Below, in pieces: positions 33,249-37,961 of a stretch of 52,064 bases of DNA (within the stretch, counting starts at the first letter, position 1; each line of letters starts with the position of its first letter). Source of the stretch: Oscillospiraceae bacterium (GTDB lineage: Bacteria > Bacillota > Clostridia > Oscillospirales > Ruminococcaceae); the NCBI GenBank assembly GCA_017533485.1, contig JAFXIC010000024.1, positions 1 through 52,064 on the forward strand. Direction: 5' to 3'. The notes under the pieces were generated by a model. It worked only from the letters and a program-made list of their open reading frames with translations. It made no database searches and was not told the origin of the DNA. The translations under genes and the position numbers were made by a program.

Positions 33249-33848
33249 TTATTCCGACTCAGCGGAACGGCTCCAAACGGCACGAAGCTTCCGTTTCCCG
33301 CGCAGGATTGCGTTGTCCACGGATTTTTCGGAGATTCCTCTGCGTTTTGCAATCTCCGCATACGAATAGCCGCTGAGGTAGAGGCTGAAAATCTCCTGTT
33401 CCAGCTCGCTCAGCACAGCTCGCATACGCTCATAGAGCTCCGAGATTCGTTCTTTCTGCAAGTAAAGCAGTTCCGGTGACGCCTGATCGGAGATCAGGCT
33501 TTCTTCCGATGCTTCATCCAGAGACACAGGCTGAACGCCATCCGTCCTGCATTTTTTCGCATACGCGGAACGAATTCGATTTTGAATGCAAACAGTTGCA
33601 AAGGTTTTGAAGCTGATATTTTTTTCGGGCGAAAAAGAAGTCGCTGCGCCGACGAGTCCCCATAGTCCTTCTTCCGCGAAATCCTCCGCATCGGCAGAAT
33701 TCTGCGCGAGCGAATTCGCAACAGCATGCACTGTATTCTGATATCGACGGATCAGGATATGGAGCGCATATGGCTGCGCGGCGGCTTCACAAGCAAGCTC
33801 CTCGTCAGACATAAAATCCAGAGCATCCCTGTTCATGCAATCATTCAC
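33249..33848 (-). CDS. SigH-like sigma-70 family RNA polymerase sigma factor
   Basis: About 199 residues. Region 2 is EDFAEEGLWGLVGAATSFSPEKNISFKTFATVCIQNRIRSA, close to the SigH (sporulation/transition-state) group. Region 4 is LSELEQEIFSLYLSGYSYAEIAKRRGISEKSVDNAILRGKRKL. The start is uncertain: GTG 33848 has AAGGATGGGG upstream; GTG 33887 and ATG 33836 are alternatives. It has a consensus promoter and no adjacent anti-sigma gene. The regulon cannot be told from the window. Confidence 0.85.
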   Translation of the reverse strand: MNDCMNRDALDFMSDEELACEAAAQPYALHILIRRYQNTVHAVANSLAQNSADAEDFAEEGLWGLVGAATSFSPEKNISFKTFATVCIQNRIRSAYAKKCRTDGVQPVSLDEASEESLISDQASPELLYLQKERISELYERMRAVLSELEQEIFSLYLSGYSYAEIAKRRGISEKSVDNAILRGKRKLRAVWSRSAESE

Positions 33849-33952
33849 AGAAATCCCCCATCCTTCGAAAGCATCTTGTTCGACCACATATCAGCTATAT
33901 GACCGCCGGATTGTGCCGTCAGAACACAGCCCAGATTCCAGCGATTATATTT

Positions 33953-33981
33953 ATTATATTAGAAAACCGTATAAATGTCAA
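33953..33981 (-). promoter_or_regulatory. Promoter of the SigH-like gene
   Basis: Reverse strand TTGACA (33976-33981), 17-nt spacer, TATAAT (33953-33958), about 105 bp before GTG 33848. Confidence 0.88.
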
Positions 33982-34054
33982 GCATTTTTTAGCAAAAGTT
34001 GTCAAATTGGCAGTTTCGCTAATTTTGCCGTGTGCTTTTCGGCACATATCACAG

Positions 34055-34618
34055 TCAGATTTCGTTTCCGTATGCCGCGCGTCCTTCTTCAAAGAGATTT
34101 CCGCCATGGTTATCAATCGCAACCAAGAGTGGGAAGTCTTCGAATGTCAGCTTTTTCACAGATTCACAGCCCAGATCGTCATATGCAATGACTTCACAGG
34201 CGGTGATATGTGCGGCAGCGAGTGCGCCGGCACCGCCGACTGCACAGAAATAGACTGCTTTATTGCGAATAATTGCATCACATACTTCGGCAGAGCGTTC
34301 GCCCTTTCCGACCATTGCCAGAAGCCCTTCATCCAGAAGGAGCGGAGAAAACGGATCCATCCGGCTGGAGGTTGTCGGACCGCAGGCACCAATCGGCTTT
34401 CCCGGAGGTGCAGCAGTCGGACCGGCAAAATAGATGACGGCATCCTTGATCGGATAAGGCAGCTCTTTGCCCGTATGCATCGCTTCTACAATACGTTTAT
34501 GTGCGGCATCGCGCGAGGTATAAACGGTTCCCGAAAGCATCACCCGATCGCCCGCGTGCAGCAGCTGCTGTACGCGAACAATCTCAGGCAGCTCCGAGAC
34601 ATTCAGTCGGTAATTCAC
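34055..34618 (-). CDS. Fe-S fumarate hydratase / L-tartrate dehydratase beta subunit, without alpha
   Basis: 187 residues, full length for the beta chain of class I two-subunit fumarases and tartrate dehydratases. SGTVYTSRDAAHKR, IYFAGPTAAPPGKPIGACGPTTSSRMDPF and FCAVGGAGALAA are the diagnostic segments. The alpha subunit carries the Fe-S cluster and usually lies directly upstream; here the upstream gene is the DivIVA-like coiled-coil gene. The start is GTG 34618, overlapping that gene's TGA (GTGA), so translation is coupled. Either alpha is encoded elsewhere or the protein has another role. Confidence 0.88.
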   Translation of the reverse strand: MNYRLNVSELPEIVRVQQLLHAGDRVMLSGTVYTSRDAAHKRIVEAMHTGKELPYPIKDAVIYFAGPTAAPPGKPIGACGPTTSSRMDPFSPLLLDEGLLAMVGKGERSAEVCDAIIRNKAVYFCAVGGAGALAAAHITACEVIAYDDLGCESVKKLTFEDFPLLVAIDNHGGNLFEEGRAAYGNEI

Positions 34619-36054
34619 AGGCTCCAACCATCATTGCTGTCAGCGTTCTTTGCCAGCTCATCGAAATTGAATTCGAAGCCGGCAGTCTTTGCGCCGGAAT
34701 CACCGGAGCTGACCTTGCTGAAGCTCTTGGACGCAACCTCATCAAAGCTCTCAAAGCTCGGTACATTGTCCTCTTCGCCAACAGTTGCGCGTGCGTCGCC
34801 GATCACATTCTTTGCTTCGCCCAGACGGACGCCTGCCTGCTCGGTCAGATTTTCGAGTACGAGAGAAATCTCGTTGAATTTCTTCGCAACACCGTCGATT
34901 TCGCTGCGCAGCAATGCACGGACAGTACGAGCGGTATCGGTTGTGGTCTTGGTGCGGCGTTCTGCATCCGCGAGGGAAGCGCGAACGGATTCTTCTGCAT
35001 CCGCGACAGTTTTAATTGCCTTTGCATCCGCGTCGTTGAGCTTGCGCTCTGCTTCTGCGTTGGCATTTTTAATCGTTTCATCCGCCTGTGCATTTGCGGA
35101 ATCAATGGTCTGTTTTGCCTGTTCTTCGGCAGCAGTCACAGTCTGTTCTGCCTTAGCGGTTGCCTCAGCGATAATTGTTTCAGCCTGTTCATTTGCCTCG
35201 CTGATACGCTTATCGGCCTTCTGTCTTGCTTCGACAGCAACCTTCTTCGCGGTCATCTGTGCCTCCATAAAGAGTGCACCCATATCCATACCGCCGTCAT
35301 CGCCATTTTCCTTGAGCTCTGCAATCTGCTGGTTGAGGTCTTCGATTTCACGCGTCTTTTCTGCCAGTGCGGCATTCTGTTCCGCGACCACAGCTTCAAA
35401 TTCGGCGATCTTCTGGAGATCCGCTTCACTGGAGCTTCCGGACTGCTCATCAATCATCAGATTTTTCGCATCCAGTTCTGCTTTCAAAGAAACGATTTCC
35501 AGTTCATATTCGTCGATCTTTGCCTGAAGCTCAGCAGAATTTCCGCCGTCAATTGCGAGTGCGGAAGCTTCGTTGAGATCATTGCGAAGCGAGTCATTAT
35601 CATTCTTGAGCGCATCGAGCTGAGCGGTCAGAGAAGCAACTTCTTCCTGACTGAGGGAGAGTTCTGCTTTGACGGATTCGAGATCAGCGGTTGCGTCAAT
35701 CAACTTAGCGTTCATTTCATCGACCTGTGCCTGTGCCCGCTCCAATTCCGCAGCAGAAACAGCACCGTCGCCGTTTGCGTCGATAACAGGTCTGTTCTTC
35801 AATTCTTCCTGTGCAGCACGGAGCTGGTTTTTGGTTGTACCGAGTTCACCGCGAAGACGGCTGAGCTCATCCTCAAATTCCTTCTGCTGAGCAGCAGTCA
35901 ATCCGCCGCCGGATTCCGCTTTTTTCGTGAGGTCATCGCGTTCTTCTTCGAGGGCATAGATTTTGGATTGCAGTTCATCGAGGTATGCAAGTACGTCCTC
36001 TTTCACAAATCCGCCCATTCTGGCTGTTCTCAATACAGTTGGCTGATCACCCAT
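34615..36054 (-). CDS. DivIVA-like coiled-coil protein with EF-hand loop
   Basis: 479 residues. Residues 1-45 form a conserved N-terminal domain (VLRTARMGGFVKEDVLAYLD then a short helix) that resembles the DivIVA membrane-binding hairpin in layout. Most of the rest is long coiled coil rich in Ala, Glu and Lys. A canonical EF-hand calcium loop (D92, N94, D96, S100, E103) interrupts it. No signal peptide or membrane helix. ATG 36054 has GGAG six bases upstream. It shares its N-terminal domain with the 62-residue protein at 36428-36616 and lies in the ftsZ neighbourhood, so a role in division or polar organisation is inferred, not shown. Confidence 0.75.
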   Translation of the reverse strand: MGDQPTVLRTARMGGFVKEDVLAYLDELQSKIYALEEERDDLTKKAESGGGLTAAQQKEFEDELSRLRGELGTTKNQLRAAQEELKNRPVIDANGDGAVSAAELERAQAQVDEMNAKLIDATADLESVKAELSLSQEEVASLTAQLDALKNDNDSLRNDLNEASALAIDGGNSAELQAKIDEYELEIVSLKAELDAKNLMIDEQSGSSSEADLQKIAEFEAVVAEQNAALAEKTREIEDLNQQIAELKENGDDGGMDMGALFMEAQMTAKKVAVEARQKADKRISEANEQAETIIAEATAKAEQTVTAAEEQAKQTIDSANAQADETIKNANAEAERKLNDADAKAIKTVADAEESVRASLADAERRTKTTTDTARTVRALLRSEIDGVAKKFNEISLVLENLTEQAGVRLGEAKNVIGDARATVGEEDNVPSFESFDEVASKSFSKVSSGDSGAKTAGFEFNFDELAKNADSNDGWSL

Positions 36055-36192
36055 AATACGCTCCATTTCTCCGCAAACAAAGAGTTGAAATTTTGATATC
36101 CATGTCCGGACAGACCTCATATCAGCTGCGGGATTTGATATGGCGGTACGGTATGTACGCACAGGGATATCGACACTTTATGTAACTCTAAC

Positions 36193-36221
36193 ATAATACC
36201 ATATTTTCGATCCTTTTTCAA
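36193..36221 (-). promoter_or_regulatory. Promoter of the DivIVA-like/fumarase-beta unit
   Basis: Reverse strand TTGAAA (36216-36221), 17-nt spacer, TATTAT (36193-36198). The remaining gap up to 36374 is AT-rich and shows nothing else I can name. Confidence 0.65.
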
Positions 36222-36373
36222 TATACATATCATACAAGAATTCATTTCATTTTTGGGCAGTTTCACAAATCTAAACGTATTTACGTTATTTTTCGGTCGT
36301 ATCATTCTAATCCAACCTGAAAACTTTTGTAAAATCCTCTCCGGATATTCCATATTGGATAGATTCTGTCCAT

Positions 36374-36406
36374 AAAAAAACAGCCCGCAGACTGCGGACT
36401 GTTCCT
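36374..36406 (-). terminator. Terminator after the small DivIVA-like gene
   Basis: Reverse strand stem CAGTCCGCA/TGCGGGCTG (one G-U pair) followed by seven T. Confidence 0.85.
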
Positions 36407-36427
36407 GATGAAAATACAATATCCTGT

Positions 36428-36616
36428 TTAGCCGAAGATAGAACCACCGTTCTGTGCAGCAGCAAGCTGACGCTTCGCCTCGTCCAGTTCTTTCTGTAAC
36501 CGCTTATTTTCTTCCTCAAGATTATACAGCATCATATTCTGCTGATCAATATACGCGAGCACATCTTCCTTGACATATCCGCCCATGAAGGCAGTACGTA
36601 AAACTTCGTTTGCCAT
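36428..36616 (-). CDS. Small DivIVA-like protein (stand-alone N-terminal domain)
   Basis: 62 residues. The N-terminal half (EVLRTAFMGGYVKEDVLAYID) is nearly the same as the N-terminus of the 479-residue coiled-coil protein, and is followed by one short heptad-like helix (LEEENKRLQKELDEAKRQL) ending in a glycine-rich tail. It is probably a membrane- or septum-targeting domain with a short dimerisation helix. ATG 36616 has AGGAAG seven bases upstream. It lies between ftsZ and the larger paralogue, both on the same strand. Confidence 0.75.
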   Translation of the reverse strand: MANEVLRTAFMGGYVKEDVLAYIDQQNMMLYNLEEENKRLQKELDEAKRQLAAAQNGGSIFG

Positions 36617-36699
36617 GTTCAAACTTCCTATCCTTTCAAATATCTGTGATTCAAAGCCAATCGGCTGTCATACCGATCAGACGGTTTATATTTTATATA

Positions 36700-36732
36700 A
36701 AGAACAGTCCGCGCACTAACGGACTGTTCCTC
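36700..36732 (-). terminator. Hairpin after ftsZ
   Basis: Reverse strand GAACAGTCCG pairs with CGGACTGTTC, followed by TTTATATAAAATATAA. The T-run is imperfect, so some read-through into the small DivIVA-like gene is likely. Confidence 0.65.
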
Positions 36733-36738
36733 ATCATC

Positions 36739-37899
36739 TTATTTTTTATCCAGAATCTTGAAGATCTCGGAGAGATCGTCATCATCGTCATTCAGTCTCG
36801 GAATTGCGGTCATCGGTGCAGCAGAAACGCTCGGCGCTGCAGCTACAACAGGCTTACGCGGATCGACTGCGACAAAACCATCGACCAGCGGATTGTTGAT
36901 TGCGATGACATCATTCTGTGCAGCCTGTGCCGCCGCAGCAGGATCATCATATCCGGCAGCGATGACGGTAATTACCATCTCGTCGTTCATTTCTTCCTTG
37001 AATGCAGTACCGAAGATGAACTCGACGCCCGGCGCTGCGGTTTCGGTAATCATCTTGGTTGCGGTATCGACTTCGGTCGAGAGAACATCCTCGCTCATTG
37101 CGATATTGATAAGGAGGCGCTTTGCACCGGTAATCGAGGTTTCGAGCAGCGGGCTGGAGATCACTGCGGATGCAGCTTCCTCTGCCTTGTTCTTGCCCTG
37201 ACCTTGTCCGATTGCCATATGTGCATAGCCTGCACCCTTCATGATGGTCGAAACGTCGGCGAAATCGAGGTTGATATAGCCATCCTCAACGATGAGGTCG
37301 GAGATAGACTTCACACCGGTACGGAGAATATCGTCTGCCATTGCGAAGCTTTCGCGCATGGTCAGAGGTCTGTCCACGCCGACGAGCAGACGCTCGTTCG
37401 GAATTACAATCAGAGAATCCACGTGCTTTTTCAGCGCTTCGATACCGCGCTCAGCCTGAAGCATTTTCTGCTCACGCTCAAAAGCGAACGGCTTTGTGAC
37501 AACAGCAACAGTCAGGATACCGAGTTCCTGTGCGATCTGTGCGACAACGGGAGCCGCACCGGTACCGGTACCGCCGCCCATACCTGCGGTAATGAAAATC
37601 ATATCTGCACCCTTGAGTGCATTGCTGATTTCGTCACGGTTTTCTTCGGCAGACTGAGAACCGACCTCCGGCTTATTGCCAGCGCCGCGGCCCTTGGTCA
37701 GCTTTGCGCCGATCTGGATACGGGTCGGAGCCTTGGAGTTCAGCAGTGCCTTTGCATCCGTATTGATTGCAATATATTCGATGTTTTTGACGTCAGCCGA
37801 CACCATGCAGTCGAGGGCGTTTCCGCCGCCGCCGCCGACACCGACAACTTTAATATTTACCTGCGGGTCAAAAGAATCCTCATATACAAAATCAGTCAT
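36739..37899 (-). CDS. ftsZ: Cell division protein FtsZ
   Basis: 386 residues. The tubulin-like GTPase that forms the division ring. The GTP-binding signature GGGTGTG is at about 108-114, with [12 protein letters not shown] at the N-terminus and the [10 protein letters not shown] loop at 71-80. An alanine/proline-rich linker leads to an acidic tail ([17 protein letters not shown]) that lacks the usual IPxFLR binding peptide. ATG 37899 has GGAGGAA upstream. It has its own promoter and is separated from ftsQ by 142 bp. No ftsA precedes it. Confidence 0.98.
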
Positions 37900-37961
37900 C
37901 AAAGTTCCTCCATTCGACAGCCTGCATCATTATAGGCTTTGCCGTCTAGTTATATAGCTAT

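Follow-up and report, generated by a model that had tools for sequence, protein, structure and literature searches.

Genes and features of the region

The window, i.e., the whole stretch of 52,064 nucleotides that was analysed, carries a division and cell-wall cluster on its minus strand, composed of mraZ, rsmH, the gene of a SpoVD/FtsI-type penicillin-binding protein, murE, mraY, the gene of an FtsW/SpoVE-type protein, murG, murA, ftsQ and ftsZ. After ftsZ, a gene of 62 residues (short gene), a gene of 479 residues (long gene), the gene of fumarase subunit B (fumB) and that of a SigH-like sigma factor follow in this order, with these features:

36739..37902, minus strand: ftsZ (TIGR00065, 382.6 bits against a cut-off of 295.2)
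36692..36730, minus strand: terminator-like inverted repeat 3' of ftsZ with a weak T-run, seen by eye and absent from the list of the terminator scan
36428..36616, minus strand: short gene, 62 aa, a DivIVA-like N-terminal segment plus a short helix (PF05103, 21.9 bits, cut-off 28)
36371..36402, minus strand: intrinsic terminator-like site 3' of the short gene (36395-36380 with T-run in the scan, longer stem by eye)
36193..36221, minus strand: promoter-like site 5' of the long gene, TTGAAA-17-TATTAT (scan, 10/12)
34615..36054, minus strand: long gene, 479 aa, a DivIVA-like N-terminal segment, a long predicted coiled coil and a conserved acidic/aromatic C-terminal tail
35914..36054, minus strand: DivIVA-like N-terminal segment of the long protein, aa 1-47, LRTARMGGFVKEDVLAYLDEL
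35746..35781, minus strand: EF-hand-like loop D92-E103 in a variable glycine-rich hinge
34615..34761, minus strand: C-terminal tail of the long protein, aa 432-479, conserved, a candidate partner-binding motif
34055..34618, minus strand: fumB (fumarase/hydro-lyase beta subunit; PF05683, 181 bits)
33249..33887, minus strand: sigma-70 family factor, SigH-like, a neighbour in 42/55 loci

The long gene is separated from ftsZ by terminator-like repeats and a promoter-like site, so that fumB, and not ftsZ, is probably its partner in one transcription unit. As read from the sequence, fumB could begin at a GTG that overlaps the long gene's stop by 4 bases. The scans gave 11 promoter-like sites (6.3 expected) and 12 terminator-like sites (5.5 expected), so single sites carry little weight. 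Similar promoter-like letters were seen by eye 5' of the orthologue in L135, the locus of the closest relative. The fumarase alpha subunit is encoded elsewhere in this genome.

Two open frames on the plus strand, 34501-36096 (531 codons) and 33899-35527 (542 codons), run antisense through the long gene. They are probably a by-product of its repetitive composition and not genes. Rfam at the gathering threshold returned two tRNAs, and the matches to PHROGs were all weak, none with a division function.

Conservation and gene neighbours

With the long protein as query, a match was found in 27 of 41 genomes, including 24 of the 25 of the genus (own genome counted). In a scan of named genomes, 55 loci came up, and the titles of their records all name MAGs of Oscillospiraceae, Ruminococcus, Clostridia or Clostridiales. 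This set was chosen by similarity to the long protein, and the linkage counts hold for it: ftsZ is a same-strand neighbour in 49/55 loci, fumB in 47/55 and both in 42/55, which bears out the linkage to ftsZ claimed in the original prediction. Three of the six loci without ftsZ (L151, L155, L186) start less than 700 bases upstream of the long gene, and the other three (L183, L185, L189) have about 3 kb upstream and still no ftsZ. At L188, an extra gene lies between ftsZ and the long gene. Since the proteins of a more distant group are only 24–37% identical to that of the window, the gene order has been kept across real divergence.

Across the genus and in related MAGs of the Ruminococcus type, the long gene is conserved and linked to ftsZ and fumB. 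The best conserved parts of the protein, in 23 sequences, include the N-terminal segment, the stretch LRGELGTTKNQLRAAQxELKNRPVI and the acidic aromatic tail, in which P432, F434, S436, F437, D438, F445, F464 and W477 are invariant.

A search with the N-terminal profile across the order matched 49 of 197 genomes. Besides the own locus, 29 loci were fetched with 1.5 kb flanks, with fumB present in nine and ftsZ in none; 22 of them lie outside the family, and seven of these have fumB. Ten other order-level loci (L123-L132), with flanks up to about 7 kb, showed fumB in three and ftsZ in none; they were picked from weak matches, and L130 among them has the appearance of a canonical DivIVA with sepF-type genes next to it. 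For genus g18, which belongs to the family, longer stretches revealed ftsZ upstream in two of three loci. The fumB link is wider than the ftsZ link, which belongs to part of the family. The expected association of the shared domain with ftsZ held in part of the family, but outside it fumB was found and no ftsZ was seen, so the ftsZ adjacency may be partly inherited gene order.

The loci at which fumB adjoins a DivIVA-like gene come from several families: the window (34055-34618), L126, L128, L132, L203 and L207, and further L210, L213, L216, L217 and L219.

The absence of ftsA, also pointed out in the original prediction, was confirmed insofar as TIGR01174 did not reach its cut-off of 175.85 bits here, in a genome that is 88.3% complete, nor anywhere among the 41 genomes searched, of which 25 belong to the genus and 16 to other families of the order. 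Weaker matches in 37/41 genomes, of at most 67.4 bits and covering part of the model only, presumably come from other actin-like or Hsp70-type proteins. A special link between the lack of FtsA and this locus was rejected, since all 41 genomes are alike in this respect, including the 16 from other families.

A canonical DivIVA (78.7 bits) is encoded on another contig of this genome, immediately after SepF, and both identities were confirmed; still further upstream are genes that, by the look of their proteins, may be miaA, hfq and ylmE. The idea that the locus holds the missing DivIVA of the genome was therefore discarded, and the window proteins are regarded as extra paralogues. Contig C25 of the same genome encodes a further DivIVA-like coiled-coil protein of 355 aa (L220:6465-7532), and the gene next downstream is that of an Fe-hydrogenase-like protein with 4Fe-4S domains; metabolic genes thus recur beside the DivIVA-like group.

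The reading preferred for the long protein, and held to be fairly likely, is that of a second, divergent DivIVA-superfamily scaffold. It might instead be a cytoskeleton-like coiled-coil filament with a FilP/Scy-like role, whose ftsZ adjacency is inherited and whose true partner is metabolic or lies elsewhere. The DivIVA-like relatives beside fumB without ftsZ, both among the ten order-level loci and outside the family, agree with such a filament, as does the paralogue adjoining the Fe-hydrogenase-like protein, but the ftsZ adjacency is kept in the family at identities down to 24%, and this alternative is considered rather unlikely.

Relation of the N-terminal segment to DivIVA

A nearly common start of the two proteins, similar in layout to DivIVA, had been proposed. 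The shared segment is real: residues 6-56 of the long protein are 55% identical to the short protein, with an E value of 3.9e-8 in a search of the own genome. The DivIVA-like layout was supported by PF05103, which matches both proteins below its gathering cut-off of 28. For the short protein, it is the best Pfam match (aa 7-55, E 1.8e-4, 21.9 bits), and for the long protein it is the third (aa 12-64, E 6.1e-5, 23.4 bits), outranked by two coiled-coil families that match further down the chain.

Comparison of the profile with the canonical DivIVA of the same order aligned 34 columns from the G-[FY]-x-x-x-[DE]-V motif, with a probability of 79.7 and a P value of 1.5e-5, and the controls (reversed profile and 20 column shuffles) scored at most 14.6. 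One of 14 coil slices, taken from the long protein itself, reached 78.9 against the 79.7 of DivIVA, indicating that the coiled coil makes up much of the score of this uncut comparison. After cutting away the coil, the DivIVA match was found in register in three trims (P 6e-4 to 1.2e-3, probability 19 to 29.5). None of the 141 overlapping coil slices scored as high, and of the 150 column shuffles a single one, among the 50 of one trim, scored higher. The likeness of the downstream AQ-type coil to DivIVA was dropped as evidence, since it scored 92.2 against 94.7 for reversed DivIVA.

The relaxed motif G[YF]xxx[QED]V is present in 35/35 long proteins and in 13/13 canonical DivIVAs. The strict published pattern GY[DN]xx[QE]V[DN] (PMC9858780) fits none of the 35 long proteins and one of the 13 canonical DivIVAs of the order, so a survey of DivIVA-like proteins that relies on it would miss the group. 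When the N-terminal profile was run against PDB sequences, the 60 listed of 102 rows contained GCN4 and other coiled coils but no DivIVA or GpsB.

In the 2023 survey, a DivIVA-like domain consists of a motif and, behind it, a dimeric coiled coil (PMC9858780), and lipid binding and dimerisation are attributed to the N-terminal region of DivIVA (PMC8872289). Like DivIVA of Firmicutes (PF05103), the window proteins have a G-[FY]-x-x-x-[DE]-V motif at the N-terminus, ahead of a predicted coiled coil, and division genes nearby. They differ in the motif, which is GGFVKEDVL here and RGYDxxEVD in DivIVA, and in length, since the long protein has 479 aa and the genome's canonical DivIVA 267 aa.

An unrelated coiled-coil protein, with short motifs ahead of the coil that became DivIVA-like by convergence, would account for the Pfam score below threshold, for the lack of DivIVA among those PDB rows and for the coil slice scoring nearly as high as DivIVA. 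Nevertheless, the motif-only match stays in register above all coil slices tested, and the motif stands at the N-terminus ahead of the coil, as in DivIVA; convergence is judged unlikely. The homology to DivIVA is thus supported but modest, and the window proteins are probably divergent members of the DivIVA superfamily, not to be filed as DivIVA.

Short gene, hinge loop and proposed role

The short protein as query matched in 28 of 30 genomes of the genus (none in G006 and G008), and its N-terminal segment also finds the long protein. A free-standing short form occurs in two of the 30, namely this genome and G016. Both short forms scored best with long forms (137 and 139), against 116 with each other. 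The short form of this genome scored 117 with its own long protein, and the long protein of G016 is not among the six best matches of the G016 short form. In the GGF loop, each short form agrees with the long protein of its own genome in having or lacking an extra residue. Each short gene is flanked by ftsZ on one side and by the long gene on the other, and a terminator-like repeat comes after it (seen by eye in G016). The N-terminal segment offers too few columns for its trees to settle most of the forks. We read the short protein as a partial copy of the long protein's N-terminal segment that is specific to its lineage, and the two short forms perhaps come from two separate partial duplications.

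With a short form in 2/30 genomes, its proposed role as a regular cap or modulator found no support, and a conserved partner was likewise rejected. The GpsB model NF010725 gave 15.7 bits on the short protein, with a cut-off of 91. The short protein resembles GpsB in being laid out as a DivIVA-type N-terminal segment and little else, but it has 62 aa, its gene adjoins ftsZ and it is found in those two genomes. GpsB has a DivIVA fold and is described as binding FtsZ in Staphylococcus aureus (PMC11062636), and the survey places GpsB genes near RecU, DnaD and PBP1A (PMC9858780). It also mentions two uncharacterised Firmicute protein clusters near GpsB (PMC9858780), among which relatives of the window proteins could be found.

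The EF-hand-like loop D92-E103, DANGDGAVSAAE, is present directly after the conserved RPVI. Close relatives were taken as the 27 loci L135-L161, 55–85% identical to the window protein, with the genus judged by similarity. The loop is kept in one of them, L135, whose copy is 86% identical overall, and in the window and in L135 all six key positions of the loop agree with the EF-hand consensus. The window loop, a single one, scored 17.4 bits with Pfam EF-hand_5 (PF13202), under the cut-off of 25.9. The remaining 26 loci have a glycine-rich hinge at this site, e.g., EGGEGGIPVADF, DGAGGGISEDVL or DGSGEGGASAEE, which fits at most four of the six key positions and already resembles part of an EF loop. 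For L157, the automatic row of key positions was a wrong-frame match, and the locus was read separately.

Since the hinge varies among relatives, the calcium reading was rejected, and the idea of a calcium-responsive protein family was not sustained. The loop is likely a flexible hinge that came to meet the EF consensus by few changes in one small lineage, and the putative calcium site is probably not the point of the long protein. A calcium-responsive division scaffold capped by the short form, as first proposed, is therefore very improbable: the complete set of key positions in the window and its closest relative argues for it, but the hinges of the 26 other close relatives, the single sub-threshold loop and the rarity of the short gene argue against it.

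For the long protein as a second, divergent DivIVA-type scaffold, we infer membrane binding, a septal or polar location, oligomerisation and partner recruitment. The N-terminal segment (LRTxxxGGF-KEDVLxYxDEL) would dimerise and would touch negatively curved membrane at the septum and poles via the basic/hydrophobic tip R12-M13-G-G-F. The long coiled coil with its hinges, one of them EF-hand-like in two species, would oligomerise and serve as a spacer, and the conserved acidic, aromatic C-terminal tail may recruit a partner. Should the short protein be produced, one would first suppose that it forms mixed dimers with the long one. As a division scaffold, the long protein would be a candidate for septum organisation in gut Oscillospirales-type bacteria without recognisable FtsA.

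A much broader proposal is that Clostridia lacking a recognisable FtsA have a second DivIVA-like family, so far undescribed, that spans the order. Its Ruminococcus-lineage form beside ftsZ would have been lengthened by coiled coil as a membrane-to-divisome tether, sharing with SepF the work of FtsA, and GpsB-like short forms would have been born repeatedly by partial duplication. This proposal is highly doubtful as a whole. The repeated birth of short forms, if true, would be a small natural experiment in the origin of GpsB-like modulators.

Our searches of open-licence PMC literature gave no paper on the family of the long protein, on DivIVA with ftsZ and fumarate hydratase, or joining DivIVA, ftsZ and Ruminococcus-type bacteria. 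For DivIVA together with fumarase, with EF-hand calcium binding or with the dcw cluster, they gave a paper on Spo0M, a review of Streptomyces germination and a paper on Mycoplasma genitalium, respectively. The long protein is a conserved, probably DivIVA-like coiled-coil protein linked to ftsZ and fumB. FilP, Scy and SepIVA are comparable as extra DivIVA-like coiled-coil proteins of variable length beside a true DivIVA, but they are described as actinobacterial, with other gene neighbours for FilP and Scy (PMC9858780, PMC11571769).

PolyDIV proteins, which carry multiple copies of the domain, are given by the survey for actinobacteria only (PMC9858780), and the window proteins differ from them in having one copy each. 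At L189:2572-3423, in the MAG of uncultured Ruminococcus sp. RUG11149, a related frame of 283 residues has an apparent zinc-ribbon start and four tandem DivIVA-like segments, as judged by eye, which is an apparent PolyDIV-like layout outside actinobacteria.
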